Shown here one piece after another: positions 18,704 to 51,500 of a DNA stretch of 64,000 nucleotides; position 1 is the first letter of the stretch; every line of letters begins with the position of its first letter. A program made the translations under genes and the position numbers. Source of the DNA: Panopea generosa. Lineage: Eukaryota; Mollusca; Bivalvia; Adapedonta; Hiatellidae. The DNA lies in the NCBI GenBank assembly GCA_029582155.1, contig CM055908.1:23111103-23175102 (forward strand). The letters are read 5' to 3'. The notes under the pieces are model-generated. The model searched no databases and was not told the DNA's origin. It worked only from the letters and a program-made list of their open reading frames with translations.

Positions 18704-19719
18704 TCAAAGCTGTAACTGACTAATTAATATTCACTAGCACTTAGTTTTGTTATGTAAAACATGCATAACAAGTCATAGTTAGTTTCTTCATTATGATGAC
18801 ACATATCGGAACAAATTATAAAATTTGATCTATTTTTTATTATAATCAACAAAACCATGATTACAAAAAGGCATTCTATAGGCACCGGTTTAAATAATGG
18901 TAGGGCATATTCGCCATAACAATTTACAATATGAAATTAACACCAAACTCGAAATAAGTGTTCAATTATTATAAATCATATTTCCAATATTTCATTTGAG
19001 GTCCAGTTTAAAATACGCCAACACTCTTATTTAAAGCACAATTGTAAGATCTAAAATACTGACCCATTCCCCTACACACACTACTCACTTGTAGTCATTC
19101 ATAATATCCTGAAATCTATGTGTTTTTTAAACAACAGTAAATACAATGTTGCTCATACAGTTGCGTATAATTGACGTTGCGTCCGTGCTACATGTGTTAT
19201 TATAAAGTTGCATATAGTTGACGTTGCGTCCGTGGTACATGTGTTATTATAAAGTTGCGTGTAATTGACCTTGCGTCCGTGGTACATGTGTTATTATAAA
19301 GTTGCATATAGTTGACGTTGCGTCCGTGCTACATGTGTTATTATAAAGTTGCATATAGTTGACGTTGCGTCCGTGCTACATGTGTTATTATAAAGTTGCG
19401 TGTAATTGACGTTGCGTCCGTGCTACATGTGTTATTATAAAGTTTCGTATAATTGACGTTGCGTCCGTGCTACATGTGTTATTATAGATTTATAACCCTT
19501 ACCGTGTTTCAATTTTCCGTGTGCGCAGTATCCATCTGTAATAAAAACATAAAAATGGGGTCAACTTTTTATTGAAAGGTCCGATATTTCCTACGTAATA
19601 ATGTGTTATCAAAGTCAAATAGACTATTGTTATCTAACAAAGACACTTCTGCCCTTCTATGACAATATTTTTTCTATTTGATGATATTTACCCCATTTGC
19701 TTCTATGTTTCATAAAATA

Positions 19720-19804
<85 letters not shown>

Positions 19805-22800
19805 CACACACACACAGACAGACATTTCCAGTGTTGAATGCATAATTAAAGCGGCGAAACCAATAGGTTCTTCTCTTTTAATTCAATAAACAACTGGTAT
19901 AATTGTAATATTTAGCAAAAATTGTGGCTGTCTGAATCACACCTGGCATAAATATATAAACTCAAACATGCTTTGGTTTTGGTTAAAAAACGGAATGTAA
20001 CGGAAGAGCAAAGACATACACATGTATTAAAATAACATATAATTCATTGTCCAAGTCATTAGTATAACAATATTGACAAAAACGTTCTTTCAAGGAATCC
20101 TACTTTTGACATAACAACCTGTTTGAATGTTTTACGAATGCGCTGATATAATTCCAAAACAGCACTTTTTCTATAGTAGTATGCCATTCTTGAAGGAATC
20201 AGTCAGTTGTTTAGATATATGAATACAAGACATAGTAAAGAATATTTCAAGAATATCCCAAACAATATTGAAACCATAATTACACAGTACTTACTTAACG
20301 TTGCTCACTCAATCTTTTCGACCAATCAGGTAGATTTGTAAACATTATGAAGTATAATATCATTCGTCTTTATGACTTGATGCTAATTTTTTATTATTTC
20401 AATGTATCTTGAACTATATAAAGGGTACATACCTAGTTCACCATGATAGGCCATGGAAGAAGTATTATTTTTAACTTTAAGAATATTATTACAACATTTT
20501 AAATGTATTCTTTCGATTTCTTTTGATTTACTTAACGTCTCTCTACACAGTTATGTCCCTTTTTCCCCACGGAAGCAAGATTCTTACTCTTAAAAAATAG
20601 GCCTATATACTTTGGTTATGAAATATTTTCAAAATGGTTCATAGTGGCTGTGATTTCTTGCCGCAGGGTGTCACTGTACCCTCTTTAAAAAAAAACACCG
20701 TGGTCAATCTACAAGTTATTGTGCATTTTTATGTGTGTATACATTCCTGCTATGAAAAATGTATTCTATGTGGAATTCTTTTTTTACCGGTGAAATCCTA
20801 GACCTTATTTTATATAGAACAAAGAACAAAATTCAACTGTGTAGTGAGACCTAAACCCCCATATTCCAGATGCATGACTTAAAATTGAGCCAACAAATGC
20901 ATGAAAAAGATGCCAAAATAGGTTAGCTTTCATATGATATTAACGGCCATTGATCAGCACATTTAATGCTTTGAGAGTTTTCCCAGCTGGCTGTTGTATA
21001 TTGAGCTGATCGTACTGACCACGTGTAGTTATATCATATGCTTCTTAATCATAAGTAATGACTCATTTTGTAGCTAATTGCCTCGTTTTTATTAAAAATA
21101 TTTTAATAAATTAACATCTTAACTCCATTCTTTATAATAATTATGTAACGAGCTGAGACTATTTTGTAGATCTTTAGCAGTATCTCCTAAAATAATCATA
21201 TCGTCAGCAAAATCTAATTAAATAAGTTAAATCGCATTTATTTCTATACTTGAATAGTGTCTTGTTGAAATACTTCTATATCTTCAATTGAAAAGGTAAA
21301 CACTATTGGGACATTATCTCCCAATCCGACCGAAAAATAAGACTATGTTCTACATGATTTAACACAAGACTGAACTATTTTATGCATATATTTTATATTA
21401 CGGAGGTTTCCTTGAATACATTGCTAATATAGTTTCAGTCATAATGCATTTCTATAAACACAATCAAATGCTTCTTTTAAAATTCACTTTTTTTTAGAAA
21501 AATGTTTTTGAACAATAGTTATAAAATAAACATTGCATCAGTGGTCGATTCACCATTTTGGAAACCAAACTTCCCGTCAGATATGACATTGTCATCATCA
21601 CAAAAAAAACCCTTTTATTAAGCACTGAAGAAAATATTTTAGTTAAGCACAATTTATTCACTTATAAGAGAGGTATCGGCTGTTTCCGGATGGCGATAAC
21701 AATTCACGAACATGTTATTCTTTCATAAGTAAGTTGTACTCGTACCTAACTATACATACCTGGTTTTAAAACTACCGTGTTTTCCCAATTTCGAAAATAG
21801 AGCAATAACCGATGTACGTTGTACAGCAAGTGCATTTATTTGGTATAATATAACAAATAATACATGATGTTGGTCCAAATGCATGTTGAATGACTATATT
21901 GTCAGACGCAGAAAGTTCTATAGACTCCAGTTTTGCTTGGTTCCATATACCATTCTAGATCTGACTGTCAAGTGCATACACTTTTAAATGGACCTCAACA
22001 GCATGTATTCTTTATTAATTAACACCCTTAACATGGATATAAGATAACTTACCTAATATTTTCTTCTGAGTGTCTGTAATATAAAATAATTATTTTTATA
22101 TAAATATACATGGGACGATATCTGTATATGTCTGTAATAGCTATATATATTATAGCAAGTTGATAGTTAGGAATTTGGAATGTTAAGGTGTTCTCTTTAA
22201 AGTTCATGTAAAATGAAAATAACACATTTTTATCCTTTATTTGCAATTGTGCTTTAATAGCCCAAGCGTTACAGAAATCTATCTGCCTCACATCACGATT
22301 AGTAATGATTAGCCAATGAAACCGGATATATCAGTCAACAACTTATTTGATAGGCCAAATGTTACAGAGACCCGCCTCACAATCATGATAAGTAATGACT
22401 AGCCAAGGAAATCCGATATATCAGTCAACAACTTATTTGATAGGCCAAATGTTACAGAGACCTGCCTCACATCATTATAAGTAATGACTTGTCAATGAAA
22501 CCCGATTAATCAGTCAACAACTTATTTGATAGGCCAAGCTTAACAGAGATCCGCCACACATCATGATAAGTAATGACCAGCCAAGGAAACCCGATATATC
22601 AGTCAACAAATGTTTCAGTTGCACAGTAGTTCGAAACATTATTAGTCATGTTATACGTACAAATAGTTCAGCTAAACGAAATCGGTCAATGGCTTATGAG
22701 AATGTGCAAAGGCAAACTACTCTACTTCGTCAGTTACGTGCACCACGCACGAATTTCTGTTTGGTATCAACGTAATTTGATCTAACATGAGGTAAACGAG

Positions 22801-25800
22801 TTGGAACATGTTGCACAAAACTCAGTAATAAAGTTGTATTCGTATTCGTTACAGCGAGCACAACTCCAAAGCTTAACAATAGTAACTTTAAGTGTGTTCC
22901 TTTACAAATGCTCCGATATAAAAGTTATAAATGTGTGCTATGTAAGTCGATTAATGACCTAAGTATGGTTTCCTAATACCAGTATACCTGGGGCAACAAT
23001 CGCTTAAATGATACACTGTATTCAGATTCAATAACATTTCGATTATATTATTTACATGGATTTAATTAAATTGTAAATAGTAAACTAATCACGTACCATT
23101 ATCCAGTGTATCGAAGTCGACCTTGTCTGAAATAAAATGGACCAAATTGTTATTATTTTATTAACGTTTAGACAGACTGAAAAATGACAATAAGGTGAAC
23201 ACAACATAATCGAAATAGACTTTTACTCATGTTATCGAATAAAATCATTTATTTTACTAATAACTGTATGTCCCCATAAGTTGCGTAAACTGTTGAACTT
23301 TTTAAACCTTCCCGTTTAATAATATTAATATTACTGGACTTATTTTTTGGTCCCGAAATATATAGTTAAGGGGAATGGCAACAAAATGAGTTTATATACA
23401 TACTTTTGAAATATTCTTTTCCTTGATATCATCTTCCTAAATTACGAAGAGCCTGCGTGTTAGACCGCATCATTAAATTGCCGACAATTCTATATATCCC
23501 AGTTCATGACATCTTCCGGTTCAGGTCTGTTATACCCCAATAAAAAACATAAGGAAGTCCATGCCTATCCCACAATTCTTAAAACTCCAACGCTTACAAA
23601 ACTGGAAGGGGTTTCAACTTCCGCTGTAGCAAATCATCAATCAGAGTGCTCTTATATTAGTGCTATGTTACGGACAAAAGCGGAGAGAGATGTGCTCGTT
23701 CTACTTTTTACGATAATTATGTTTTCAAAGTTACCTACCTGAAAATCTCTGATAAGCCAACTCAGCAAACAGATCGAAAAGTTTTTCAACAACATTGTTT
23801 GGCAGAGTAGATAAAAACCGAACTGAAATGAAGTAAAAAATTTAGGCAATGTTGTAAATACATATCATTAAATTCAAGTAGATTAAAATTGCTTGTCATA
23901 CATTATTAAATAAACAATTGAAATAAATGTTTCATCACTTTACCAAATCAAACTCGACTCTTCGCTGAATAGTAACAATACCTGTACAAAGCTAAATACA
24001 GATAAAGTACATTGTTCCAGGACACTCATATCAAGACAGTGCGTCTTTCAATTATTTCATTCGAACCATATTTGTATTTAAATTTATATTAATTTGTGAA
24101 CAGCCGCGGAATTTTAAATTTATAGAAATAATTTTAAAGCACTTAGTCTCAATATTTAATAAAAGTTATCGTTATCGAGCGGTTAGTGCAAAAATTTTTA
24201 TTCAATATAGGCACAGAAGGTTTACTGACTGATTTTGCATTAAATTCACGATATCGAAACATTTGATCTTATAATAATGTTTGCCATCCTGCTACTATGA
24301 CCGTATAGAACGTTGTGTAAGGAAACATAGGAGATTTTGCTTCTTTTTAGGTATTAATAAGTGTTTATTGTGTGGACGTTTAACAAAAGAAAAACAATCA
24401 CATATAGCAGCTGTCAGCAGCCAGTGTGTGACTAATTTATCAAAATGATGCTTTATAACACAAACGTATTTAGAATTTAACCTAGTATTCGAACACCAAC
24501 TAGTAATGACGTCATTGTGAACGTCAGCATATACATGTAAATGAAGCGTTTCATTTCACTTTATTTCTTCCAAACAATTATATGCTGATAAAGCATCCGA
24601 ACTCATGACGTAGTTATCAATATGATATGTTTCACGTGGTGTCGTTATTAAAAGATACTGAAGTGTTATCACAATAATTTACACCTTTCAGATGTTATAG
24701 TAAAATATCTAAATATTTTCTGATTTGGCAACTCTAAATTTGCATTTGATTGAATCGAGTTTCAAACGAGTACATAGAATTGCTATTTGCCACAAGAAAG
24801 ATGCTATTACGTAGCTCCGGCTGTCTAATCTATAAATAAACATGCCACTGAAACCATACTGATACACGTGACCCAAGTCATAAATTGAATACTTAACCAT
24901 GTTCCACGTAAATTATAACATAAATAAATATATACGGAATGGTCCACTGACGTTGTTTTGTATGCATGCTGTTAAACATTTATTCATGTAAATGTTTATT
25001 GCATAAGTCAAATTCATTTGTTTTACAAGTGTTCGAGGAAATCATTAATACTATGCGGTAACTAACTTATTTGCTTACTTACAGACTACAAACACCTACG
25101 TGTTTTAATTCCCCCCACAATTGTGATAGATCACTTATGTCCTACCTTCATTCCAGGCTTCGTACTCCTCATAGGTCATCAGGGAGCCTCCACCTGTAAA
25201 TGTTTCAGAAAAAACATATCTTTAAATACAATATGACATATGTATGCATATATACAGTTTATAGTCCATGGTTTATTGTCAGTTTAACGTGTAAGGCAAC
25301 TTTCATTTCACTGAAATGGTTCTGGTAGTGACAGGGTTTTTTGTGGTGAAACTGAAGTGATCGGATATATAGAGCATGTCAATGGCGTCGTTTGCAAAAG
25401 CTGTTTACACCGATTACCGTATGACTTGTAAACTCTGGCTCTCAATTAGTTACTTAAACCCATTCTTAGTGATATAGACGTTCAGCAGCTTGATAGTAAA
25501 GTTGTTCCAACATCACAGACAACTAACACAGAAAGCAGGACTTTCTATATATATTTATTTTTTTACATTATTACAACTGTCATTTAAACTTTAATAAATT
25601 CTATTAACACATATGCACGCTTCTAAACATAATTCAAACACGTCCCCATCTCAGATATTAACAAACACATTTCTACTCAAAACACAGCCATACTAAAACA
25701 CGTCTTAACCTCCTCGCCTCCCAAAGTATTCTCATATCTTAACATACTTGCGTCTAGAAGTATTCTCCATTTTAACCCTCTCGCATCCAAAAGTGGTCTG

Positions 25801-28800
25801 AGACTAAAAACTTTCGTCATGCACTATTACCTGACATAAACAATGCACTGCAGTGCTGATGGGAGCGGAGCATATAAGATGTAAACTGTCGCTATTGTTT
25901 TAGACAAACACATCAGTTTGCATACGTTGAAGTAGAATACTCCCGATTACCTTTGATTCTTATACAGGGTACAAAATCTACATGTTCTATGCTTAACGTT
26001 GATCCTTTTCTCGAATAAGTCAGAGAACGTAACTGAATGGTTATGAGATTTGTATCTTCAACTCAACTCATGATATTTTCAGAAATGCCAAGCTTTCTAT
26101 CATATACAGTATAAATATCAAAGTGTTCTGAATCTAGCACGATGAATTCCACTTTGAGTATATTCATTTACTATTTGCTTTATTGATTTCTCTAGCGCAA
26201 CAGTGAAACAATTTAATTAAGAGACGAAAAGTAGAAATGTGTATGTCGACATTAATAATTGATTCTTACATTTATATTTTCTAGTGCCCTATATCATCCC
26301 ATAAATGGAACCGCACTAGCCAAAATGTTATGACGCCGATTTTTAGACACATCTGGATGTTTGCGTATTTTGCTACGGAAACACAAATACTTTAACTCTA
26401 ATATGTTTAAATGGCAATTATCTACCGTTCCAATTATTGGAAATATATGAAATATTTACTAAATAATAAAAAAACAGCACTGACATTATTCATAACTCGA
26501 TCAATCTCGAATTCTTTTTAGGAATACAAGGCTATTTTTAAACATATGGGAGAAACCGCAAGTCACGTGATCGACATTAGCATATCTCTATTTTTAGAAC
26601 GAGTATTGATCTAGAAAAAGTTTTGTTCCCGTACACATTTTTTAAATGATAGAAAAAAAGTGAAATCAGAATCCCGAATCAAGTAGTTATATCTGAAGTC
26701 CTTGTCGAAATATACGACTCTTTCAATGTACATGCTGACGATATACTTCGTGACCTGATATTTGATTTTACAAGATGGCGTAATCTTTTGGTCACGTGAC
26801 GATAGTTCGTCGCGTCTGTATTCATGCGCTTTAATTCCTTTGTGCTGATAAATAGCACTGAATATAAACTTTATGTGATACACAATTGTTTATAGGAATG
26901 AATCGTCGCTGTTATAATATTAATGTTTTAGTTGAAATAGGCGAATCTACTGTTTATAGCGAGTTTGCTTATCAGGTGGTGGGACTATTTGATAAGTGGT
27001 TGTTAGGTTTGCATTAACACGATACAGATACACGGTTGTAGAATTGCGGTATTGAAAAAAAATCATGTTAGCTCTTAGAGCCGCTGCTAAAGCACCGCCC
27101 CCAAAAATGACAGCTAATTTATCTCCCCCTACATTGTTTTGGACCTGGGCGTACATGTACTGGCCAGATGTCCGTTAACATGTACGACAATGCCTCAGAG
27201 TGGGCCCTGTACATTATTGGAAGAAGAAGAACTTCCCATAAAACATGTTAACATTCTTAGTCCTATGTACGCTATTGTTGACAGTGTGTAATTTATCGGA
27301 ATTTCAAACTAGTTAGGATTAATGACAAACTGCATGTACGTATAGAATATCCCATACAAGTATTATATTGGGTTTAAATTTGACATTATCAAACTAAAAT
27401 CTATAATTACTGAGTGACAATGACTATAATACAAAGTTTAAGTCTTTAAAATGCTTTCAGTGATCACGGTAGAAACTGACTACTATGATTTCAGTTTCAC
27501 AGAAAAGATCTATAAATAGATATTTGCACTTCCGTTATAAGAAAAAGTTACCGCAGTCACAAACCGAAGCGAAGGTATGTTGAACAGTAAAATATCAGTG
27601 GCATAATTTATAACCTGTTCCACATTCACTACAGTATTAACGTTTGTTATTTATTATAAATAGTGATCAAAGCCCATAATTTGCTAAGCTAACGTTTTAA
27701 CTCAACATAATAAATAAATAAATTGCCCACTTACCTGTATTATTTCAGATTTCTAAACTACTTAAATAGAGTTATCACACAATTGTTTGTCTTCCGTATT
27801 AGGTATAAACTAATATTTATTAAATGTCTAAAAATACCATTTAACTAATGATGCCAGATATTGAGAACAATCTGTTTAGCATAATACCAACTTGACAATC
27901 TAACATACAAGTTGGTATGACATGTATAGCATAACGCCTATGTATAATATTTACCTGTCAGCTCTGAAAAAGAAGAAGAGAGAAACTCGATTTAAAGAGG
28001 GATTAATGAAATAAAACCGAATTACAAACTTATTACGCTTAATTGTTTAGTGATAAAGCAAATACATAATAATTTTTACTTGCTCGTCACGAAATCGTGA
28101 CACGGATGTTTTATATCAAGCGATTAACTATGAATAAAACGCCAAATGGTAACTTTTACATTGATTCATCATTGGTCCTCGGTATTGAGTTGTCTAAGGC
28201 GCCTCAAGATCACTTTTTAACCGCTAAGATCATAGGTTCGATTTCCGCTTTCTCCAAAAGCTTTATGTGAGAACGTTTGCTCGTTACTAGCGGAAATACG
28301 GTGGTTCTATTCATTCTGAGGTCTTCCTCCACCAATTAAACTGGATATGTCTTATATATGCGAACATATGTTGAAAATGGCACTAAAACACAAAAAACAT
28401 TGATTGCTCAACCAAATCATTCTTTTTTTATCATTTATATTCAAAACCCTTTTTATTAGTGGAGATAAGTCCATTTAGAACCAACGCTCTTGTTTTCAAT
28501 CCAAGCTTTTAGATCTAGTTGAGCTCGGACCGACGAGACGCTGTATAAATGTAGAATCTACAATTTACTGAATTTTAGTTAATTAATTAAATGCTAATTT
28601 TGCAGTTAAATACAACATTGAACAGTTTTTCCAATAACTTACCAATTTGAATTGTAATTTTACTATTTAATTATTGTGTTAAAGTGCATTTCAGAACCGT
28701 TCTAAGCAATTTTTTGGTCATACTTGTTTTTTAACATTAAGCAACACTCGTGTTGTATTAAAGATGTTATACGAAGGATTACCTCCGAACAGCGCATCGA

Positions 28801-31800
28801 GTCCTTGTTCTATAGCCATCATTGCTGACTTGGCGCATGAGAAGAAAGATTCTGTAAATAAAACATTACATGGCATAAAGGAAAATCAGCATGACACTAC
28901 TAGCCTGTAGAACGAACCCAGTTCTCTCGATTGGGTCCGTTAAATAGTAACTGTAACGAGCAAGCTGATTGGTCAGTTGCTTCAGGGAAAGTTTGAATGA
29001 CGTCACAGTTTAGTCAGTGTTCAGTTGCTATATAGGACAGGCATAGAATTCCCTGCTTTTGTCATTTGTGGCTAATAGAACTGATTCGGGAGATATCAGG
29101 TTCGTGGATAGACTAATGAGATTACTAATTTTTAAAGGCGAGTCCAATTTTCACTGTAAACTACTCAAGTGTCTAATATATTTTATTGTACTGATATGTT
29201 TAAAATACATTCGCTTGGTACTTTAACCATTAAAAGATACAAAATTTGAATCTTTGGAGATATGCAAGCAATAATGATCTAAGAAATTGAGATATGTGAG
29301 TCGTTTTAACTATAATATTTCATAATTATTTGATAAAACGCATACCGATCATAATTATTTAAGATACCCGAATACCCAAACGACGTGTAAAAATCATAAA
29401 ACTTGAGATACCCGAATATTCACTTCAATTTCAATTTTCAAATCAATTTATTTATTTACACTTAGGTTCATATGAAATCATAAGCATCAATACACAAATT
29501 TCTACTTTATTATAACATAATGACGACATGTAACGACGTGTAAATATCATAATGACAGATAACGTATACTAATTGTTGAAACTATCTAGATACTATTGAA
29601 TGCAAACACATTTATTAATGGTGTGCATGTCTGTGCATTGTGTGAATACGTCTACGGTAAATCTGTCGTCAGCACCGAAGTGGGTTGCAGGAATCTGCCT
29701 TTGTCCAGACTAGATAGTGTAATATTGAGGTTAAAACTATAATATTTATCTGCACAAACAACTTGGTAACACCTTATAATTCTACAAAATGAATGTACAA
29801 ATAAGAGAATTTGAACGGTCATGCAAGATATGTTGGTCATGAGACCTAGACAGGGTTTAGTGGTATTATTATGAGATATATTTTTTCTGGCGCTAACCAC
29901 AGACTATCTGCGACCAAGCGATTGCTGATAACAATAATGTGCTTACCGGCATCTTGTCTATCCAAACACGGTACGGATACATCGACACAGGTGACACCCT
30001 TACTCTGAGATCCTGTCAAGTTTAAATAAAATAAACACAATTATATACGAGTATTTCATACCAATATATTTAAGTGTGATGTACATATACACCATTTCTT
30101 AAGTTTCATAACACAATGAGTAAACTCTATATCATTGACAGTTTTTAGTTCACGTGTCACAGCGCACGATCATCATAAGTACAATCTACAAAACTGATAA
30201 TTACGGATAATCACATAGCACATTAGTTGAACACGATATGTAAAAAACAGTTTTTGACATTTCTTAATTCACATAACAACGTGCATGATCAACTCTACGT
30301 CCCTATGTCTCTATGTCTTTGAAAGTACCTGTTTTCCTTTACTTTAACTTTTGTTTAGTTAAGTTGGACACAACCAGACATGTATACTTTGTAAGGATGA
30401 ATTAAAAACGTAAGTAATGATAAATGCGTTAGTGATGTCCGGGCAGATGACTTGCCGAAAAAAAAACAGAATTGATTAAATATGTATATAAGTTAACGGG
30501 AAGGAAACAAAACTTGATGTAGTTGAAGCAGACGCATATTTAACATAACCCTATCAACGTTATATAGAACTTTGTTTTGTACCCCCCAAGTATGATGTTC
30601 ATGATAAAATGATTGGAGAAAATCCATACGAGGGGTATGACAAGCTCACAAATATTTAAAAATAACAAAAAAAATATTAAAGGCAAATGAAATCACATGA
30701 CAAGTGATCGCTGCTGAAATATGACTAAAATTGAAAAAAAAAATGAATAGCATTACGCATAAACATTGTTACGTACTCAGTTCCAGGTTTTCTGCCTTCT
30801 TGTCTAGTTCCTCTGAAGCTGAACCACTGCTGTATTCATCAATACGAGTTTCTGCGTTCAACAAGTTATATATTAATATACTGCCATACAATTAAGAAGT
30901 TGACTACAATCTATACCAGTCATTAGTAAATATAACTAAACTTGAGGTCGGAAGAGAGTTTATATAAGTTAACGACACAGGAAAACCCAACTTTACATAT
31001 TTAAATCATTCTAAAACTTTAATCAAAATTCAAACAAAAATAATTTATATTCCATATAATTACGCATAAACATTGTTACGTACTCAGTTCCAGGTTTTCT
31101 GCCTTCTTGTCTAGTTCCTCTGGAGCTGAACCACTGCTGTATTCATCAATACGAGTTTCTGTGTTCAACAAGTTAAATATTAATGCACCGATATACAAAT
31201 AATAAGTTGACTACAATCTATACAAGTCAATAGTAAATATAACTAAACATGAGATCGGAAGAGAGTTTATATAAGTTAACGACACAGGAAAAACAACTTT
31301 ACATAGTTAAATCATACTAAAATTTTGAAACCAAAATTAAAACTAGAATAATTAATATTCAATAGCATTACGCATAAACATTGTTTCGTACTCAGTTCCA
31401 GGTTTTCTGCCTTCTTGTCTAGTTCCTCTGGAGCTGAGCCACTGCTGTATTCATCAATACGAGTTTCTGTGTTCAACATGTTATATATTAATGCACCGAT
31501 ATACAAATAAGAAGTTGACTACAATCTATACAAGTCAATAGTAAATATAACTAAACATGAGGTCGGAAGAGAGTTTATATAAGTTAACGACACAGGAAGA
31601 ACAACTTTACATATTTAAATCATTCTAAAACTTTAATCAAAATTCAAACTAGAATAATTTATATTCCATATAATTACGCATAAACATTGTTACGTACTCA
31701 GTTCTAGGTTTTCTGCCTTCTTGTCTAGTTCCTCTGGAGCTGAACCACTGCTGTATTCATCAATACGAGTTTCTGTGTTCAACAAGTTATATATTAATGC

Positions 31801-34800
31801 ACCGATATACAAATAAGAAGTTGACTACAATCTATACAAGTCATTAGTAAATATAATTAAACATGCGGTCTGAAGAGAGTTTATATAAGTTAACGACACA
31901 GGAAAACAACTTTACATATTTAAATCATTCTAAAACTTTAATCAAAATTCAAACAAAATAATTTATATTCCATATAATTACGCATAAACATTGTTACGTA
32001 CTCAGTTCCAGGTTTTCTGCCTTCTTGTCTAGTTCCTCTGGAGCTGAGCCACTGCTGTATTCATCAATACGAGTTTCTGTGTTCAACAAGTTATATATTA
32101 ATGCGACGATATACAAATAAGAAGTTAACTACAATCTATACAAGTCAATAGTAAATATAACTAAACATGAGGTCGGAAGAGAGTTTATATAAGTTAACGA
32201 CACAGGAAAAACATCATTACATAGTTAAATCATACTAAAATTTTGAAACCAAAATTAAAACTAGAATAATTGATATTCAATAGCATTACGCATAAACATT
32301 GTTACGTACTCAGTTCCAGGTTTTCTGCCTTCTTGTCTAATTCTTCTGGAGCTGAGCCACTGCTGTATTCATCAATACGAGTTTCTGTGTTCAACAAGTT
32401 ATATATTAATGCACCGATATACAAATAAGAAGTTGACTACAATCTATACAAGTCAATTGTAAATATAACTAAACATGAGGTCGGAAGAGAGTTTATAAAA
32501 GTTAACGACACAGGAAGAACAACTTTACATATTTAAATTATTCTAAAACTTTAATCAAAATTCAAAAAAAAATTTTATATTCCATATAATTACGCATAAA
32601 TATTGTTACGTACTCAGTTCCAGGTTTTCTGCCTTCTTGTCTAGTTCCTCTGGAGCTGAACCACTGCTGTATTCATCAATACGAGTTTCTGCGTTCAACA
32701 AGTTATATATTAATATACTGCCATACAATTAAGAAGTTGACTACAATCTATACCAGTCATTAGTAAATATAACTAAACTTGAGGTCGGAAGAGAGTTTAT
32801 ATAAGTTAACGACACAGGAAAACCCAACTTTACATATTTAAATCATTCTAAAACTTTAATCAAAATTCAAACAAAAATAATTTATATTCCATATAATTAC
32901 GTATAAACATTGTTACGTACTCAGTTCCAGGTTTTCTGCCTTCTTGTCTAGTTCCTCTGGAGCTGAACCACTGCTGTATTCATCAATACGAGTTTCTGCG
33001 TTCAACAAGTTATATATTAATATACTGCCATACAATTAAGAAGTTGACTACAATCTATACTAGTCATTAGTAAATATAACTAAACTTGAGGTCGGAAGAG
33101 AGTTTATATAAGTTAACGACACAGGAAAACCCAACTTTACATATTTAAATCATTCTAAAACTTTAATCAAAATTCAAACAAAAATAATTTATATTCCATA
33201 TAATTACGCATAAACATTGTTACGTACTCAGTTCCAGGTTTTCTGCCTTCTTGTCTAGTTCCTCTGGAGCTGAGCCACTGCTGTATTCATCAATACGAGT
33301 TTCTGTGTTCAACAAATTAAATATTAATGCACCGATATACAAATAATAAGTTGACTACAATCTATACAAGTCAATAGTAAATATAACTAAACATGAGGTC
33401 GGAAGAGAGTTTATATAAGTTAACGACACAGGAAAAACAACTTTACATAGTTAAATCATACTAAAATTTTGAAACCAAAATTAAAACTAGAATAATTAAT
33501 ATTCAATAGCATTACGCATAAACATTGTTTCGTACTCAGTTCCAGGTTTTCTGCCTTCTTGTCTAGTTCCTCTGGAGCTGAGCCACTGCTGTATTCATCA
33601 ATACGAGTTTCTGTGTTCAACATGTTATATATTAATGCACCGATATACAAATAAGAAGTTGACTACAATCTATACAAGTCAATAGTAAATATAACTAAAC
33701 ATGAGGTCGGAAGAGAGTTTATATAAGTTAACGACACAGGAAGAACAACTTTACATATTTAAATTATTCTAAAACTTTAATCAAAATTCAAACTAGAATA
33801 ATTTATATTCCATATAATTACGCATAAACATTGTTACGTACTCAGTTCTAGGTTTTCTGCCTTCTTGTCTAGGTCCTCTGGAGCTGAACCACTGCTGTAT
33901 TCATCAATACGAGTTTCTGTGTTCAACAAGTTATATATTAATGCACCGATATACAAATAAGAAGTTGACTACAATCTATACAAGTCATTAGTAAATATAA
34001 TTAAACATGCGGTCTGAAGAGAGTTTATATAAGTTAACGACACAGGAAAAACAACTTTACATATTTAAATCATTCTAAAACTTTAATCAAAATTCAAACA
34101 AAATAATTTATATTCCATATAATTACGCATAAACATTGTTACGTACTCAGTTCCAGGTTTTCTGCCTTCTTGTCTAGTTCCTCTGGAGCTGAACCACTGC
34201 TGTATTCATCAATACGAGTTTCTGTGTTCAACAAGTTATATATTAATGCGACGATATACAAATAAGAAGTTAACTACAATCTATACAAGTCAATAGTAAA
34301 TATAACTAAACATGAGGTCGGAAGAGAGTTTATATAAGTTAACGACACAGGAAAAACATCATTACATAGTTAAATCATACTAAAATTTTGAAACCAAAAT
34401 TAAAACTAGAATAATTGATATTCAATAGCATTACGCATAAACATTGTTACGTACTCAGTTCCAGGTTTTCTGCCTTCTTGTCTAATTCTTCTGGAGCTGA
34501 GCCACTGCTGTATTCATCAATACGAGTTTCTGTGTTCAACAAGTTATATATTAATGCACCGATATACAAATAAGAAGTTGACTACAATCTATACAAGTCA
34601 ATTGTAAATATAACTAAACATGAGGTCGGAAGAGAGTTTATAAAAGTTAACGACACAGGAAGAACAACTTTACATATTTAAATTATTCTAAAACTTTAAT
34701 CAAAATTCAAAAAAAAAATTTTATATTCCATATAATTACGCATAAATATTGTTACGTACTCAGTTCCAGGTTTTCTGCCTTCTTGTCTAGTTCCTCTGGA

Positions 34801-37662
34801 GCTGAACCACTGCTGTATTCATCAATACGAGTTTCTGTGTTCAACAAGTTATATATTAATGCACCGATATACAAATAAGAAGTTGACTACAATCTATACA
34901 AGTCATTACTAAATATAATTAAACATGCGGTCTGAAGAGAGTTTATATAAGTTAACGACAGAGGAAAAATAACTTTACATATTTAAATCATTCTAAAACT
35001 TTAATCAAAATTCAAACAAAAATAATTTATATTCCATATAATTACGCATAAACATTGTTACGTACTCAGTTCCAGGTTTTCTGCCTTCTTGTCTAGTTCC
35101 TCTGGAGCTGAGCCACTGCTGTATTCATCAATACGAGTTTCTGTGTTCAACAAGTTATATATTAATGCACCGATATACAAATAAGAAGTTGACTACAATC
35201 TATACAAGTCATTAGTAAATATAATTAAACATGAGGTCTGAAGAGAGTTTATATAAGTTAACGACACAGGAAAAACAACTTTACATATTTAAATCATTCT
35301 AAAACTTTAATAAAAATTCAAACAAAAATAATTTATATTCCATATAATTACGCATAAACATTGTTACGTACTCAGTTCCAGGTTTTCTGCCTTCTTGTCT
35401 AGTTCCTCTGGAGCTGAACCACTGCTGTATTCATCAATACGAGTTTCTGTGTTCAACATGTTATATATTAATGCACCGATATACAAATAAGAAGTTGACT
35501 ACAATCTATACAAGTCAATAGTAAATATAACTAAACATGAGGTCGGAAGAGAGTTTATATAAGTTAACGACACAGGAAAAGCAACATTACATGGTTAAAT
35601 CATTCTAAAATTTTGAAACCAAAATTAAAACTAGAATAATTTATATTCAATAGCATTACGCATAAACATTGTTACGTACTCAGTTCCAGGTTTTCTGCCT
35701 TCTTGTCTAGTTCCTCTGGAGCTGAGCCACTGCTGTATTCATCAATACGAGTTTCTGTGTTCAACAAGTTATATATTAATGCACCGATATACAAATAAGA
35801 AGTTGACTACAATCTATACAAGTCAATAGTAAATATAACTAAACATGAGGTCGGAAGAGAGTTTATATAAGTTAACGACACAGGAAAAACAACATTACAT
35901 GGTTAAATCATACTAAAATTTTGAAACCAAAATTAAAACTAGAATAATTTATATTCAATAGCATTACGCATAAACATTGTTACGTACTCAGTTCCAGGTT
36001 TTCTGCCTTCTTGTCTAGTTCCTCTGGAGCTGAGCCACTGCTGTATTCATCAATACGAGTTTCTGTGTTCAACAAGTTATATATTAATGCACCGATATAC
36101 AAATAAGAAGTTGACTACAATCTATACAAGTCAATAGTAAATATAACTAAACCTGAAGTCTGAAGAGAGTTTATATAAGTTTACGACACAGGAAAAACAA
36201 CATTACATGGTTAACTCATACTAAAATTTTGAAACCAAAATTAAAACTAGAATAATTTATATTCAATAGCATTACGCATAAACATTGTTACGTACTCAGT
36301 TCCAGGTTTTCTGCCTTCTTGTCTAGTTCCTCTGGAGCTGAGCCACTGCTGTATTCATCAATACGAGTTTCTGTGTTCAACAAGTTATATATTAATGCAC
36401 CGATATACAAATAAGAAGTTGACTACAATCTATACAAGTCAATAGTAAATATAACTAAACATGAGGTCGGAAGAGAGTTTATATAAGTTAACGACACAGG
36501 AAAAACAACATTACATGGTTAAATCATACTAAAATTTTGAAACCAAAATTAAAACTAGAATAATTTATATTCAATAGCATTACGCATAAACATTGTTACG
36601 TACTCAGTTCCAGGTTTTCTGCCTTCTTGTCTAGTTCCTCTGGAGCTGAGCCACTGCTGTATTCATCAATACGAGTTTCTGTGTTCAACAAGTTATATAT
36701 TAATGCACCGATATACAAATAAGAAGTTGACTACAATCTATACAAGTCAATAGTAAATATAACTAAACCTGAAGTCTGAAGAGAGTTTATATAAGTTTAC
36801 GACACAGGAAAAACAACATTACATGGTTAACTCATACTAAAATTTTGAAACCAAAATTAAAACTAGAATAATTTATATTCAATAGCATTACGCATAAACA
36901 TTGTTACGTACTCAGTTCCAGGTTTTCTGCCTTCTTGTCTAGTTCCTCTGGAGCTGAGCCACTGCTGTATTCATCAATACGAGTTTCTGTGTTCAAAATG
37001 TTATATATTAATGCACCGATATACAAATAAGAAGTTGACTATAATCTATACAAGTCAATAGTAAATATAACTAAACATGAGGTCGGAAGAGAGTTTATAT
37101 AAGTTAACGACACAGGAAAAACAACTTTACATATTTAAATCATTCTAAAACTTTAATCAAAATTCAAACAAAAATAATTTATATTTCATATTTCGATTCA
37201 TAACATTATTACGTACTCAGTTCCTGGTCTTCTGCCTTATTGTCTAGTTCCTCTGGAGCTGAGCCACTGCTGTATTCATCAATACGAGTATCTGCGTTCA
37301 ATATGTTCTCTATTAATGCCCCTGTGCAAAAGTGAAGCAGATAATATTACGGTAATCAAAAATCAATTAATATTTAATATTTATAATAAAACGAGATGTC
37401 ATAAACGTTATTTTCTCTGAGTAAAAAGCTGTTACAGTAGTAAAATCAGACACATTTTAGAGAAAACTAATACACAGTAAAGAGAAAAGGACATATTAAT
37501 ATATACCGAATAATATGGCACGACATATGCTTAGTTTCTCAAATACAGTTAAAACTTTTTTAAAAAAGAGGAATATATTGCAATATCATTAAGTATGAGT
37601 AGTATAAATGTACATACTGATTTCTAGGTCTTCTATCTTTTTGACGAAATCAACCTCTGGTA
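18533..37662 (-). CDS. Gene A: micro-exon gene with a 22-copy exon array
   Basis: Read 5' to 3' on the minus strand: a 45-nt exon (37662-37618), 22 tandem 75-nt exons (37291 down to 30777), then exons 30012-29947, 28851-28783, 27963-27955, 25193-25146, 23822-23739, 23126-23097, 22073-22053, 19535-19503 and 18570-18533 (stop TAG). Every intron is GT-AG and every junction is phase 1. The nine C-terminal exons match gene B exon for exon, with equal lengths and similar peptides. If all exons are used, the array adds 550 residues of acidic 25-residue repeats before a C-terminal region of about 130 residues with four cysteines shared with B. I recognise no domain. The 5' end (start codon, any signal peptide) is not found; weak candidates lie at 39.2 and 41.8 kb. 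Function is unknown. Confidence 0.75.
18619..18700 (+). repeat. Compound (CTGT)n(CT)n microsatellite
   Basis: About ten TCTG units are followed by about twenty CT units, inside the last intron of gene A. Confidence 0.98.
19155..19487 (+). repeat. 47-bp tandem repeat, seven copies
   Basis: Units contain TTGACGTTGCGTCCGTG, then CTACATGTGTTATTATAAAG. The spacing of GTCCGTG is 47 bp. The array lies just 3' of the gene A exon at 19503-19535, in its downstream intron. Confidence 0.95.
19503..19535 (-). CDS. Gene A 33-nt exon
   Basis: Acceptor TTTTTATTACAG, peptide GYCAHGKLKH, donor GTAAGGGTT. The gene B counterpart at 49506-49538 reads AVCKHGILSH, sharing the pattern C-x-H-G-x-L-x-H. Phase 1-1. 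Confidence 0.75.
19722..19818 (+). repeat. Compound (GA)n(GACA)n(CA)n microsatellite
   Basis: This is the reverse-complement type of the tract at 18619-18700, about 1.1 kb away. Confidence 0.98.
20980..21660 (-). pseudogene. Degenerate LINE reverse transcriptase in a gene A intron
   Basis: Minus-strand translation, with frameshifts and stops, gives FGFQNGESTTDAMFIL, then EAFDCVYRNAL, QGNLRNIKYMHKIVQSCVKS, SYFSVGLGDN and the catalytic DFADDMIILGDTAKDLQNSL (near 21150-21215), then YKEWS. The order matches non-LTR reverse transcriptase palm motifs. It is not functional. Confidence 0.75.
22053..22073 (-). CDS. Gene A 21-nt micro-exon
   Basis: Acceptor TATATTACAG, peptide TQKKIL, donor GTAAGTTATC. 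The gene B counterpart at 51990-52010 encodes TRLEIM with the same length and phase. Confidence 0.6.
   Translation of the reverse strand, partial: TLRRKY
22255..22615 (+). repeat. About 90-bp tandem repeat, roughly four copies
   Basis: Units carry ATATATCAGTCAACAACTTA, then TTTGATAGGCCAAATG, CAGAGACCCGCCTCAC and AAGTAATGACTAGCCAA. The spacing of TAGGCCAA is 90 bp. Confidence 0.9.
22640..22765. other. Intronic element conserved between genes A and B
   Basis: GGTCAATGGC and AACTACTCTACTTCGTCAG with TGCACCACG here match GGTCAATCGC and AACTACTCTACTCTGTCAG with TGCACCATG at 52795-52862. It lies in the same intron of both genes, where little else aligns. It may be regulatory or simply residual duplication homology. 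Confidence 0.5.
23097..23126 (-). CDS. Gene A 30-nt exon
   Basis: Acceptor TTTTATTTCAG, peptide KVDFDTLDN, donor GTACGTGATT. Gene B at 53247-53276 encodes KVDIDTLDE. Confidence 0.75.
23739..23822 (-). CDS. Gene A 84-nt exon
   Basis: It encodes RFLSTLPNNVVEKLFDLFA, then ELAYQRFS, in phase 1-1 with acceptor CATTTCAG and donor GTAGGTAAC. Gene B at 53952-54035 differs at only two residues that I can see. The segment is predicted helical and amphipathic by eye. Confidence 0.85.
23850..25140. other. Gene A intron, nothing recognised
   Basis: AT-rich; no exon with conserved splice sites and no clear transposon seen. Confidence 0.45.
25146..25193 (-). CDS. Gene A 48-nt exon
   Basis: Acceptor CATTTACAG, peptide GGSLMTYEEYEAWNE, donor GTAGGACAT. 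Gene B at 55687-55734 encodes GDSLMTFEEYEAWNK. Confidence 0.85.
25200..27950. other. Gene A intron, nothing recognised
   Basis: I found no exon-like segment shared with gene B. A compositionally distinct stretch near 26945-27240 may be an old transposon but shows no diagnostic ends. Confidence 0.4.
27955..27963 (-). CDS. Gene A 9-nt micro-exon
   Basis: A nine-base exon (AGCTGACAG) sits between a strong acceptor (CTTCTTCTTTTTCAG) and donor GTAAAT. It adds Leu-Thr plus two junction codons. Gene B has the same size of exon (AGATAACAG, 58852-58860) between equally strong sites and in the same order, which makes it credible despite its size. Confidence 0.6.
28175..28395 (+). mobile_element. tRNA-derived SINE, diverged, same family as 3826-4067
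   Basis: Recognisable parts are GTCTAAGGCGCCTCAAGATC, box-B-like TAGGTTCGATTTCCGC, GAGGTCTTCCTCCACCA and TGTTGAAAATGGC. It lies in a gene A intron in antisense orientation. Confidence 0.6.
28783..28851 (-). CDS. Gene A 69-nt exon
   Basis: It encodes SFFSCAKSAMMAIEQ, then GLDALFG, in phase 1-1 with acceptor TTTATTTACAG and donor GTAATCC. Gene B at 59631-59699 encodes SFFVCAKSAMLNIEQ, then DLDALFG. Confidence 0.85.
28918..29075 (+). repeat. Dispersed repeat carrying CRE and CCAAT motifs, copy 2
   Basis: It carries GGTCCGTTAAATAGTAA, TGATTGGTCAGTTGCTTC, the CRE TGACGTCA at 28998-29005 and GTTTAGTCAGTG. It matches copy 1 (reverse, 2270-2390) and copy 3 (54360-54495). Confidence 0.7.
29947..30012 (-). 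CDS. Gene A 66-nt exon
   Basis: Acceptor CTTGACAG, peptide SQSKGVTCVDVSVP followed by CLDRQDA, donor GTAAGCAC. Gene B at 60389-60454 encodes DESHKGVCANVSVP followed by CLDSLNA. Two cysteines are shared. Phase 1-1. Confidence 0.85.
30777..37291 (-). repeat. Tandem array of 22 coding exons (75 nt each)
   Basis: Exon copies start at 30777, 31084, 31392, 31698, 32002, 32310, 32614, 32921, 33228, 33536, 33842, 34147, 34455, 34760, 35066, 35372, 35680, 35988, 36296, 36604, 36912 and 37217; each is exactly 75 nt. Each has an AG acceptor (usually GTTGAACACAG), a GTACG donor and phase 1-1. The peptide is TRIDEYSSGSAPEELD, then KKAENLEL, plus one junction codon (Lys between copies). The period is 304-308 bp, with all length variation in the introns. 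Among copies 2-21 I see one amino-acid change (Glu to Asp, copy 11) but silent changes at several codons. The most 5' copy (37217) is most diverged. The unit is acidic with heptad-like Leu/Ile spacing, so a coiled coil is possible. Use of each copy in mRNA is unknown. Confidence 0.9.
37618..37662 (-). CDS. Gene A 45-nt exon upstream of the array
   Basis: Acceptor CTCCTGCCAG, peptide PEVDFVKKIEDLEI, donor GTATGTAC, phase 1-1. Its end (KKIEDLEI) resembles the array unit end (KKAENLEL), so it is probably a diverged relative of the array exon. Confidence 0.65.
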
Positions 37663-38309: not shown

Positions 38310-38890
38310 GTATACTCTAGATGTGATTAAAATACCAATGGCAGACTGAAACATCAGGTGAAAACCTGTTCCACATAACAATGGACGTCGGATTGAAACT
38401 GTTCTGATATGCGGTTTTCAGTGCAGATAACTGAATAAACTGATAGTTTTGTCTCTTTATGGTCTTTTCTAGTTTGTTTAAGTGGAGTACTTCGCCTAGT
38501 GTCAACTCAGTTATTGTAAGATTTGTAGAACATCGTGACCCGGGCAGCGATGCGACGGCGCTGGGGGATTTCCCACTTTAGGTCAGCCAACTTGACAGTG
38601 ACACTGCTGGCCCTGGTATAGTCATATTTGACTAATCAAGGCACCCTTGGCTGGACTTTCTCAAGTTGGTTGATCAGGCAGCTGGTTTGACCATACAGTT
38701 AAATAGTTTTCCAAGATTAGTCGGACGTACATGTACGTGCGGTATGCTTTCAACTTTGATTTTGGTGAACATGATGCTATGTTTCTCCTTATGAAGGACA
38801 TGGCAGAATAGGCCTTTTTAATTGTGTTATATAGCCCATTATTCGAATTTAGCATATCCAACAACTTGCTTCTCCGGTCTATAAACTCTC
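38310..38890 (-). pseudogene. Degenerate LINE, reverse transcriptase C-terminal region
   Basis: Minus-strand frames give SFIRRNIASCSPKSKLKAY, then LILENYLTVWS and NQLEKVQ, then RRRIAARVTMFYKSYNN and YQNSFNPTSIVMWN. This series is typical of the region after the palm in CR1/jockey-like LINEs. Stops and frameshifts show it is dead. It lies upstream of the gene A array in the same orientation. Confidence 0.8.
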
Positions 38891-39244: not shown

Positions 39245-39278
39245 CATTTTTCTTAACGTCTGAGACTCGTTTCCTCAG
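39245..39278 (-). CDS. Candidate 5' exon of gene A (34 nt)
   Basis: It lies between acceptor CCCTATTTCAG and donor GTTAGTA. The only open phase is 0 to 1, giving LRKRVSDVKKN, which would join in frame to the exon at 37662-37618. No gene B counterpart was found, so this is tentative. Confidence 0.35.
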
Positions 39279-41840: not shown

Positions 41841-41869
41841 TGTTGAGGCATGGATTAGGCACGAAGTCC
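41841..41869 (-). CDS. Candidate 5' exon of gene A (29 nt)
   Basis: It lies between acceptor ATCGCTGATAG and donor GTAAGCAAT. Read from phase 1 to 0 it gives TSCLIHAST and would join the 39278-39245 candidate in frame. There is no signal-peptide exon in view, so it is weak. Confidence 0.25.
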
Positions 41870-42214
41870 CTATCAGCGATAAAACAATTAACAAACGCAT
41901 TACGAAAAGTTAAATATGTCCCCTCGTCGCATGTACAGCAATAAAACTCAGCCGAGTAACACTTTTATACATGTACTCTCTACCCGATGAACATTTTGGA
42001 AAGCCACATGTAACCCCCGCAGATATTTATTATTTTCCCTCTTTAAGTCTATGTATTTAAATAATAATCCCCTGCATCCAGGTGTAACAATAAAATGAAG
42101 CGTAGTACAATAAAATGAAGCGTATTATTTTAAATGCATTATCTTTTATTATAATGAAACTAATCGTCTTCGGAAGGGTGGGGGCGGAGGTCAATAACTG
42201 CGTACTTCTACATT

Positions 42215-48507: not shown

Positions 48508-51500
48508 CTGAGGAAATAAATGTCATACATAAATAATTTATTATTGTATTATATCACACTCTCTCTCTGTCTCGCCAAACAATTTCAGAACAAGTTATAT
48601 ACTTGTCTGAGGTACTTTCACTGGTTTCAGAAATTTTACATTTAAATTAATAATACTAATCATGCTTAAAGTTTGTGATTGTCTTTTAATGCACACATTT
48701 TACTAACTATCAGCTTTTACTTCTACCCTTGAACTGCATCAATATAGTATACATGGCTAAGTTTGATTATCTCTATGACGAAAAAATCAAGAAATGGCAA
48801 ATTTCCAAGATGGCTGTGACATTACTTTCACATTAATATTCAAGGGATTTAGGTCAAATATTACACATGTGTGCCACTCGTTTATACTAATGTAATAATG
48901 GTATAAGTTCAGACAATCACAACAAATGTAATATGTAAAGAATCGTTGTTTTCTATGTATGGGGGCTAGGGACAATTTTAACAAAATATGTTCTGTGTAA
49001 TGACAAACTGAGATTAATATTCCTTGGTTATACGCTGATTTCAGAAATTTTAAAGTGAAATAATTTTAGTACAAGATGCCTCTCCATTCTCGTAGATGGA
49101 AAAGCATTCTCTAAATCTTATCGCTAAAGTCAGGGAAATAGTAAGTAAAGGTGCACGATACACAACTCGGCAATAAGTTGGTATATGAAAAGGAGCTGCC
49201 CTTGAATATTCATGCATGTAATCTATGCCTAATGGATACCGTATTTGCTTACTGATGACCAAAAATGCACTGGCGTCAAAATTGGAAAACAGTTCCCCAG
49301 ACAAGACATATGAACTTATTAAAACTGTGGATAAAACATGGGTTCCATTTTTTAGCCCAAGCGAAGACTGAATTACACGAAATGGGCAACAAGACATGGC
49401 TAAAAGCATAACATTGCATAACGAACCGTCAATGTCAAAAGGTCAGTGAAATTAAACTTGTAAAATTGTATGTACGAATAACATTTAATAACAAATAATT
49501 CTTACCATGTGACAATATTCCATGCTTGCAAACTGCATCTGAAATGAAATCATAAACGAATGTGTACACTTTGTATTGAATATTTTGTGCTGTTCTTGAC
49601 TGATACTCGTAGCATGGTACGTAAAACTCATCCAGCGGTCTCAAATTATATTGGTTTGTTTAAATCAGCCTAGAAATAAAATCTTATTAATGCAATGAAG
49701 GTGGTCAGGGGTGGTATTCACCAACCATTTTCAAGAATATTCTTAGACTTGAACTCATGAATGAATTTTGAAAAACACATTTAGAGACCATATTTTGAGG
49801 CCAAAATTTGCAAGCATGCAGGGACACATAATTTATAGTCAGATAAACTGTTATAATTATTCTATATGTCATGGTAAACTAGATATCTAAGGTTACAATT
49901 TGGCTTTTCAAGTTAAAGTCTAAGAATATTCTCAAGAATGGTTGGTGAAAACGACCCCTCGTCTTGTAGACACACTCCACCCAATGCAAACAGGAAGTGC
50001 ACTACATATGTCAACACAAAATAACATGTAAGTTTTATGTCTTTTAGTCGAGCCTTTCTCTGAACAACAAAGATTTAAGAGAAAAATCAATGATAGGTTT
50101 AATAGGATTATTAAGTTGGCCTTAACGCCATGACCAGTCAGTCAAGTTGGCTAAGTAGTAAAGTTTTGCTAAGTCAAGTTGACCTTGTAGTATAGTGAAG
50201 TCAACCTAGTAATATAGTCGACCTAGTTATGAAATATGTTGGGTAAGTAGTAAAGTGAAATCGCCACAAAAGTCAAAGTAAAGTGAAATTGGCCGCTTTG
50301 TAAAGCAAATAAGCGCAGATCAGCCTTGGTAAAGTCAAATCGGCCTAGTGGTAAAGCCAAATCGGTGTAGTGGTAAAGCCAAATCGGCCTAGTGGTAAAG
50401 CCAAATCGGCCTAGTGGTGATGCCAAATCGGTCTAGTGGTAAAGCCAAATCGGCCTAGTGGTGATGCCAAATCGGTCTAGTGGTAATGCCAAATCGGTCT
50501 AGTGATATAGTCAAACTGGCACAGTTGTAAAATGAAATCGGCCTAGTGGTAAAGCTCAATCAGTCTAGTGATATAGTGAAACTGGCACAGTTGTAAAGCC
50601 AAATCGGCCTAGTGGTAAAGCCAAATCGGCCTAGTGGTAAAGCTCAATCGGTCTAGTGATATAGTCAAACTGGCACAGTTGTAAAGCCAAATCGGCCTAG
50701 TGGTAAAGCCAAATCGGCCTAGTGGTAAAGCTCAATCAGTCTAGTGATATAGTCAAACTGGCACAGTTGTAAAGCCAAATCGGCCTAGTGGTAAAGTCAA
50801 ATCGGCCTAGTGGTAAAGCTCAATCGGTCTAGTGATATAGTCAAACTGGCACAGTTGTAAAGCCAAATCGGCCTAGTGGTAAAGTCAAATCGGCTTAGTG
50901 GTAATGCCAAATCGGTCTAGTGATATAGTCAAACTGGCACAGTTGTAAAATGAAATCGGCCTAGTGGTAAAGTCAAATCGGCCTAGTGGTAAGTCAAATC
51001 GGCCTAGTTGTAAAGTCAAATCAGCCTAGTGGTAAGTCAAATCCGCCTAGTGGTTAAGTCAAATCAGCCTAGTGGTAAAGTCAAATTTGCACAGTAGTAA
51101 AGTCAAATCGGTCTAGTAGTAAAGTCAAACTGGCACAGTAGTAAAGTCAAATCGGTCTAGTGGTAAAGTCAAATCGGTCTAGTGGTAAAGTCAAATCGGC
51201 CTAGTGGTAAAGTCAAATCGGTCTAGTGGTAAAGTCAAATCGGCCTAGTGGTAAAGTCAAATCGGCCTAGTGGTAAGTCAAATCGACCTAGTGGTAAGTC
51301 AAATCGGTCTAGTGGTAAAGTCAAATCAGCCTAGTGGTAAAGTCAAATCAGCCTAGTGGTAAGTCAAATCAGCCTAGTGGTAAAGTCAAATTTGCACAGT
51401 AGTAAAGTAAAATCGGCATGGTAGTAAAGTCTAATCGACCTAGTGGTAAAGTCAAATCGACTAAGTGGTAATGCCAAATCGGCTTAGTGGTAAAGTCAAA

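Follow-up and report, generated by a model that had tools for sequence, protein, structure and literature searches.

A 22-copy array of 75-nt exons as the probable middle of a secreted-protein gene in a mollusc

An array of 22 near-identical 75-nt units in a mollusc genome is best explained as the repeat-coding middle of a gene for a secreted protein, here called gene A, which would belong to a small mollusc gene family and in which the array would provide an acidic spacer whose length is set by copy number; judged from the DNA, we place the probability of this reading at about three in four. The predicted protein would begin with a signal-peptide-like exon followed by a short, charged N-terminus, continue through the array and finish in a C-terminal segment with four cysteines. 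The placing of the array within a predicted secreted-protein family that could be matched to none described is well supported. The window, that is the whole 64,000-nt stretch of DNA analysed, corresponds to C15:23111103-23175102, and positions given without a prefix are those of the window.

The array and the gene that contains it

The units, all on the minus strand, occupy 30777-37291. Their length is exactly 75 nt in every case and successive starts are 304-308 bp apart, which leaves introns of about 230 bp; Tandem Repeats Finder reports 21.4 copies of a 308-bp unit over 30752-37319. All 22 are flanked by AG on the 5' side and GT on the 3' side and are open in phase 1-1, and a change that breaks the frame or the AG/GT dinucleotides is found in none of the 22. 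Both the number, length and spacing of the exons and the intactness of their splice sites are therefore as the initial annotation had claimed, the latter giving no independent evidence because the copies have recently been homogenised. Numbered in the order of transcription, the first copy, c01 (37217-37291, NTRIDEYSSGSAPEELDNKAEDQEL), is also the most diverged, and the 21 copies from c02 to c22 (30777-36986, with c22 at 30777-30851) all encode KTRIDEYSSGSAPEELDKKAENLEL or a one-residue variant of it in 75 nt and phase 1-1.

The array is young. Mean pairwise identity among c02-c22 is 94.6% over the whole unit including introns, a seven-copy block has been duplicated such that c16-c22 and c09-c15 are 98.7% identical (2116 of 2143 positions), and two pairs of units, c03 with c05 and c04 with c06, are 100% identical. 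As copies this similar and this recently homogenised provide no independent evidence through the conservation of their splice sites, a claim that the array is coding needs support from outside it, and that independent support is the remainder of gene A together with its paralogues. The array itself was found nowhere else in the genome (1.474 Gb in 39 contigs) by a search with the repeat peptide in which only the best candidates were scored; this search gave 22 matches among 26 scored candidates, all of them within the array of gene A. The acceptors of the array are poor in pyrimidines, which take up on average 7.8 of 17 positions there, whereas the mean for the other eleven acceptors of gene A is 12.0 of 17, and it is therefore plausible that some of the copies would be skipped.

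The gene A model runs on the minus strand from 41900 to 19095 and has 34 exons with 2163 nt including the stop, encoding 720 amino acids with a predicted pI of 4.5. The chain was read by eye along the minus strand either side of the array and then checked by script, and it is in frame with no internal stop. Of the 33 introns the first is in phase 0 and the remaining 32 are in phase 1. The lengths of exons e3 to p8 fall between 9 and 84 nt and are all divisible by three, and each of these exons is phase 1-1; since every intron but the first is in phase 1, any of these exons could be duplicated or lost in frame.

Upstream of the first exon there is a TATA-box-like sequence, identified by eye (41962-41969), and similar sequences precede the first exon of gene B and the candidate first exon of gene C, the two paralogues described below. 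Exon e1 (MRLLIVLSLIGTSCLIHAST, 41841-41900, 60 nt with a phase 0 donor) is hydrophobic and, judged by eye, resembles a signal peptide; it has relatives in gene B (70% identical) and at a further locus, D (95% identical). Exon e2 (39245-39278, 34 nt, phase 0 to 1) encodes LRKRVSDVKKN and has a relative with the same phases in gene B, LRKKISDLDEN, and a pattern scan for e2 in gene C found none. Exon e3 (VPEVDFVKKIEDLEI, 37618-37662, 45 nt, phase 1-1) has a relative in gene C and is itself akin to the repeat exon, from which it has diverged. Local DNA alignment of e3 with the exon query scored 41 against shuffle maxima of 30 for 0.5 kb of flank and 36 for 5 kb (100 shuffles each) and of 34 in 30 shuffles of 15 kb of flank, and the matching stretch is the 3' portion of the repeat exon together with the donor. 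When the whole 308-bp unit was the query there was no excess, 18 of 100 shuffles reaching the score. In the search of the flanks at the DNA level e3 was the sole match to the repeat; the corresponding protein-level search gave no further relatives (best score 35, exceeded by 2 of 20 random sequences), nor did e3 and c01 as new queries give a convincing further copy (best score 30, taken without shuffles). A search of the genome with DNA flanking the array returned dispersed repeats and the array itself only. The intron before e3 holds a dispersed repeat (38339-38828, minus strand) which by eye resembles the tail of a LINE reverse transcriptase and had 1325 first-look candidates in the genome, and the 40 that were scored were mostly 68-76% identical.

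Downstream of the array the model continues, still on the minus strand, with p1 (RSQSKGVTCVDVSVPCLDRQDA, 29947-30012, 66 nt), p2 (ESFFSCAKSAMMAIEQGLDALFG, 28783-28851, 69 nt), the 9-nt micro-exon p3 (27955-27963), which encodes ELT, p4 (GGGSLMTYEEYEAWNE, 25146-25193, 48 nt), p5 (VRFLSTLPNNVVEKLFDLFAELAYQRFS, 23739-23822, 84 nt), p6 (DKVDFDTLDN, 23097-23126, 30 nt) and p8 (DGYCAHGKLKH, 19503-19535, 33 nt). All seven are phase 1-1 and present in both B and C; p5 is 93% identical in B and 86% in C, and for p3 and p8 none of 60 shuffles reached the score in either paralogue. Two further exons, p7 (DTQKKIL, 22053-22073, 21 nt) and the terminal p9 (GYYE followed by the stop, 19095-19108), are provisional since p7 is uncorroborated in B, where its score equals that of the best shuffle, and in C, and p9 is uncorroborated in B. 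The C-terminal segment that these tiny exons make up has four cysteines. A short interspersed element of about 220 bp lies in the intron between p1 and p2 (28898-29117); it had 7608 first-look candidates in the genome, and among the 40 scored the full-length ones were 83-88% identical.

Paralogues and genomic neighbourhood

When the C-terminal 124 residues of gene A were compared with the genome (E up to 10), 11 matches among 12 candidates were obtained at three loci, all on C15, and a second query taken from gene B led to the same three loci (10 matches among 10 candidates). Gene B is on the minus strand and partly in the window, with modelled exons from C15 position 23185852 down to 23164349 and p8 at 23160608. 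Gene C is outside the window and on the plus strand, where its model extends from e3 at C15 position 23215168 to p6 at 23226106 with p8 beyond, and its first exon, 44% identical, is a candidate only. Exons p1, p2, p3, p4, p5, p6 and p8 have matching boundaries and phases in B and C; in B they are on the minus strand at 60389-60454 (p1), 59631-59699 (p2), 58852-58860 (the 9-nt p3), 55687-55734 (p4), 53952-54035 (p5), 53247-53276 (p6) and 49506-49538 (p8). The two paralogues thus corroborate most of the predicted structure of gene A, and the claim of the initial annotation that the repeat units are phase 1-1 coding exons is very probably right, given the in-frame gene context and the seven downstream exons found in two paralogues.

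The slot that the array occupies in gene A is filled in another way in its two sister genes. Gene B has there, twice over, a 39-nt exon (ENDDLKRMEKMEL type) together with a large one, 594 nt or 825 nt in length, and the large exons consist mainly of a 15-nt Gly-Ser repeat. The 825-nt exon, G2, is phase 1-1 and extends on the minus strand over 63479-64000 and on to 64303, so that the window ends on the right within a (GSGSG)n minisatellite (63479-64000) which the model assigns to the coding sequence of gene B. Gene C has in the same place e3, Gly-Ser-repeat exons of 444 nt and 189 nt and a 30-nt exon, and all the exons in this slot in B and C are symmetric, divisible by three and open. Gene B retains a relic of e3 (C15:23179017-23179052, or 67915-67950 in the numbering of the window) whose acceptor and donor have been lost and whose peptide is still recognisable, a loss without damage to the frame since a phase 1-1 exon tolerates it. 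We envisage that in gene A a single 75-nt exon akin to e3 was duplicated in tandem and, with further block duplications, filled the slot, and that in B and C it was taken by symmetric exons bearing the 15-nt Gly-Ser minisatellite. Two other minisatellites, with units of 42 nt (60079-60268) and 21 nt (61235-63281), are found in introns of gene B, and the 21-nt array flips orientation near 61.42 and 61.83 kb.

The greater part of genes B and C falls within the two arms of a large inverted duplication that covers roughly 23151812-23180470 and 23213531-23237182 of C15, its arms being about 77-94% identical in the longer aligned pieces and the left arm corresponding to 40710 to 64000 of the window and beyond. 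One breakpoint falls inside intron 1 of gene A. The right arm also holds D, a lone relative of e1 at C15 position 23235562, which is the first exon, standing by itself, of a fourth copy. Beyond C15:23240000 the genome-wide searches gave no further array or C-terminal exon.

Elsewhere in the window the plus strand carries pieces of IAP-like genes at 4352-15797, namely a BIR-like frame at 4352-4579 that was recognised by eye and has no Pfam match, a BIR frame matched by Pfam at 10649-10915 with a near copy 2.1 kb further on at 12756-13022, and a RING frame, again matched by Pfam, at 15582-15797. These frames, and contig numbers that go up to at least C19, agree with a clam-like bivalve; a bivalve expansion of IAP genes, and 19 chromosomes, have been described in work on the hard clam (PMC7831173). 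That the animal is a mollusc is taken from its muscle myosin: among the best 60 of 145 sequences, two joined myosin exon pieces of the genome scored about 285 bits with PDB entries 3i5f and the 1dfk/1dfl/1b7t group, which come from squid and scallop, whereas Myosin-7 entries reached 255.6 bits at most and 3jbh 250.7 bits. A 3.6-kb minisatellite (GATGATTGGT type, 4578-8205) adjoins the BIR-like frame and has an extreme GC skew, reaching 0.935 in one 2-kb window. A borderline tRNA-Pro, perhaps a tRNA-derived sequence, was detected at 3070-3143 (plus strand), where it scored 29.4 bits and the gathering score is 29.

Coding constraint and alternative readings of the array

Variation within the array bears on whether the unit is read as an exon. 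Among c02-c22, 6 of the 75 exon sites are variable against 55 of the 231 intron sites (Fisher p = 0.0025), and none of the 306 windows of 75 nt has fewer variable sites than the exon (ties exist) or lower diversity. When distinct site patterns are counted p is 0.006, and on the strictest count, that of distinct partitions of the copies, the figures are 5/75 and 30/231 (p = 0.15). Four of the six exon changes are silent, where a fraction of 0.22-0.26 would be expected (P 0.02-0.04), and the frame of the model is the richest in silent changes among the six (4, the next frame having 3). The other two sites are replacements, P to S in c22 and E to D in c12, so the initial annotation, which had counted one amino-acid change among 20 copies against several silent differences, somewhat undercounted the replacements. 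The first copy, c01, has four changes from the consensus, all replacements in the model frame and none silent, with one silent change in each of the other five frames. Including c01 the silent tally becomes 4/10, which is not significant (P 0.15-0.24); set against the consensus, however, c01 is better conserved in its exon, with 4 differences in 75 positions, than in its flanks, with 12 in 52 (p = 0.005). Coding constraint on the array exon, as had been proposed, is supported but modest: the lower variation of exon than intron and the silent excess in c02-c22 speak for it, and the strictest count and the tally with c01 do not.

Over the shared C-terminal codons dN/dS is 0.30 between A and B (17 silent, 21 replacement changes), 0.47 between A and C (16 and 30) and 0.96 between B and C (5 and 17). 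The first of these values indicates that A and B have diverged under constraint, and the last that B and C may be relaxed or fast-evolving.

The alternative that fares best, unlikely as we consider it, is a real gene whose array is for the most part skipped or decaying and whose protein requires few copies or none. The weak acceptors fit such a state, as do the replacement-only changes of c01, the lack of the repeat exon in B and C, the loss of both splice sites from the e3 relic of B, and the phase 1-1 structure which renders skipping harmless. Against it stand 22 copies that are all free of changes that break the frame or the AG/GT dinucleotides, and an exon whose variation is as low as that of any window of the unit.

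It is also conceivable, though disfavoured and improbable, that the true repeated exon is one of 42 nt (TPEELDKKAENLEL), spliced at an internal CTCAG, and that the preceding 33 nt are intron. In alignment the internal AG falls on the e3 acceptor, and it would keep the frame too, but the pyrimidines before it are no better (7 against 8 of 17) and there are other AGs just upstream. Moreover the 33 nt that would be excluded have a single variable site in c02-c22 (p = 0.005 against intron), which is silent in frame, whereas the 42-nt part alone is not significantly unlike intron (5/42, p = 0.11). It is because the 33 nt are less variable than intron that the 75-nt exon is preferred.

Finally, that the array is a non-coding 308-bp tandem satellite, with a 25-codon frame open by chance and chance splice sites copied by homogenisation, is very unlikely: the high identity of the copies across their introns, the duplicated seven-copy block, the completely identical units, the dependence of AG/GT conservation on homogenisation and the many other minisatellites in the window would all suit it, but satellite DNA is a tandem repeat without a coding frame tied to a gene, and here the unit is connected in frame to a gene whose remaining exons recur in paralogues, its relative e3 adjoins the array, no stretch of equal length within the unit varies less than the exon, and all 22 matches to the repeat lie in the one array inside gene A.

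The predicted product and comparison with known systems

Pfam, the sole family library searched, has no family that matches the single repeat or the C-terminal segment, in agreement with the initial annotation, which did not recognise the gene family. Concatenated repeats did return PoNi_N (E 1.9e-10), Unstab_antitox, U-box and others, in none of which any stretch passes alone, and these matches are thus artefacts of summing over repeats; a construct of two repeats matched PoNi_N alone with an E of 0.058, below its cut-off. Similarly, three joined repeats matched an LRR kinase structure (PDB 6s6q, E 8.7e-5) with no stretch passing alone. The best match of the C-terminal segment to the sequences of solved structures in the PDB had an E of 0.52 and is not credible. 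Literature searches for the gene A family, bivalve exon arrays and neighbours gave no paper on the family among the matches listed.

Each repeat looks like a short charged helix (PEELDKKAENLELKTRIDEY) followed by a flexible linker (SSGSA). With every copy included, the middle of the protein would then be an extended acidic spacer about 550 residues long. We infer that all or most of the copies are spliced in, which would give short charged helices alternating with YSSGSAP linkers. Being composed of tandem in-frame copies, this acidic middle could lengthen or shorten without breaking the protein, and outside the cell it would act as a spacer whose length follows exon copy number.

Our best guess from composition is that the product is an extracellular spacer with one Ser-Gly per exon, and perhaps a proteoglycan-like core. 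Gene A has 22 Ser-Gly dipeptides, one in each repeat; the partial model of B contains 138 of them and that of C 49. Ser-Gly is described as the most common site of glycosaminoglycan attachment, with heparan sulfate favoured by repetitive Ser-Gly and by a nearby acidic cluster with tryptophan, and acidic residues stand near chondroitin sites too (PMC4598785). Set beside these site rules the Ser-Gly repeats make a proteoglycan-like core a reasonable guess, and the single Ser-Gly of each repeat may bear sugar chains, possibly glycosaminoglycan.

The array offers a clean natural case in which a protein is lengthened in frame by the exchange of whole exons, with near-identical copies, and in which two sister genes fill the same slot differently. 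It bears on how the spliceosome handles 22 near-identical exons and on whether the design of the schistosome micro-exon genes (MEGs) exists outside flatworms; should the serines bear sugar chains, the number of glycans would be adjusted through exon copy number. A bolder and rather unlikely reading is that the three genes belong to a secreted micro-exon family that exists outside flatworms. In gene A, genomic exon copy number together with exon inclusion would fix digitally how many Ser-Gly sugar-attachment sites there are, one per 75-nt exon, and B and C would arrive at the same result with a minisatellite within exons.

Whilst the exon-array layout is already known from a few other genes, the protein of gene A itself has no credible Pfam match. 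In its layout gene A resembles the exon arrays of Tetrahymena, the PEVK region of titin and the schistosome MEGs, and it fails the defining features of each. The LRR genes of Tetrahymena have head-to-tail arrays of 90-bp exons in phase 2, in thousands of genes in ciliates, which have been attributed to exon shuffling with unequal crossing over (PMC6564038). One exact exon length, a bias to a single intron phase and characteristic introns (about 257 bp in T. thermophila and about 230 bp in gene A) are shared with these arrays as they are described; the exons of gene A, however, are 75 bp and phase 1, neither the single repeat nor the C-terminal segment matches a Pfam family where the ciliate repeats are leucine-rich, and there is one mollusc gene against thousands of ciliate ones.

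In titin the PEVK region also consists of short repetitive exons expanded by duplication, the length of the spacer being determined by exon number and alternative splicing (PMC6469411). Gene A shares the expansion of such exons by duplication, whereas titin, for which splice isoforms are documented, is a giant protein of muscle and the product of gene A is predicted to be secreted. By hand count P, E, V and K make up 9 of the 25 residues of KTRIDEYSSGSAPEELDKKAENLEL, which is short of the PEVK_Finder default of at least 0.54.

The MEGs of schistosomes have a signal peptide and mostly small symmetric exons between longer introns, are fast-evolving (PMC10526429, PMC4350168) and appear restricted to platyhelminths (PMC4350168). 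By eye MRLLIVLSLIGTSCLIHAST resembles a signal peptide, with relatives in B and D, and the exons from e3 to p8 are small and symmetric, though at 9-84 nt they are larger than the 15 bp usual in MEGs; the fast evolution reported there has its likeness in the high dN/dS between B and C. Gene A differs in coming from a mollusc, in having exons that are mostly of 75 nt and not 15 nt, together with a near-identical 22-copy array, and in its segment after the signal, LRKRVSDVKKN, which has no W and by eye lacks the motif given for MEGs (FL..F, six residues, W, a polar residue, K/H/R; PMC10526429).

A further likeness, to cores of the serglycin type, rests on Ser-Gly composition and not on sequence homology: as in the secreted core described there (PMC4598785), Ser-Gly is repeated in the predicted secreted proteins of all three gene models, B and C being SG-rich and gene A having one Ser-Gly in each repeat with acidic residues nearby.
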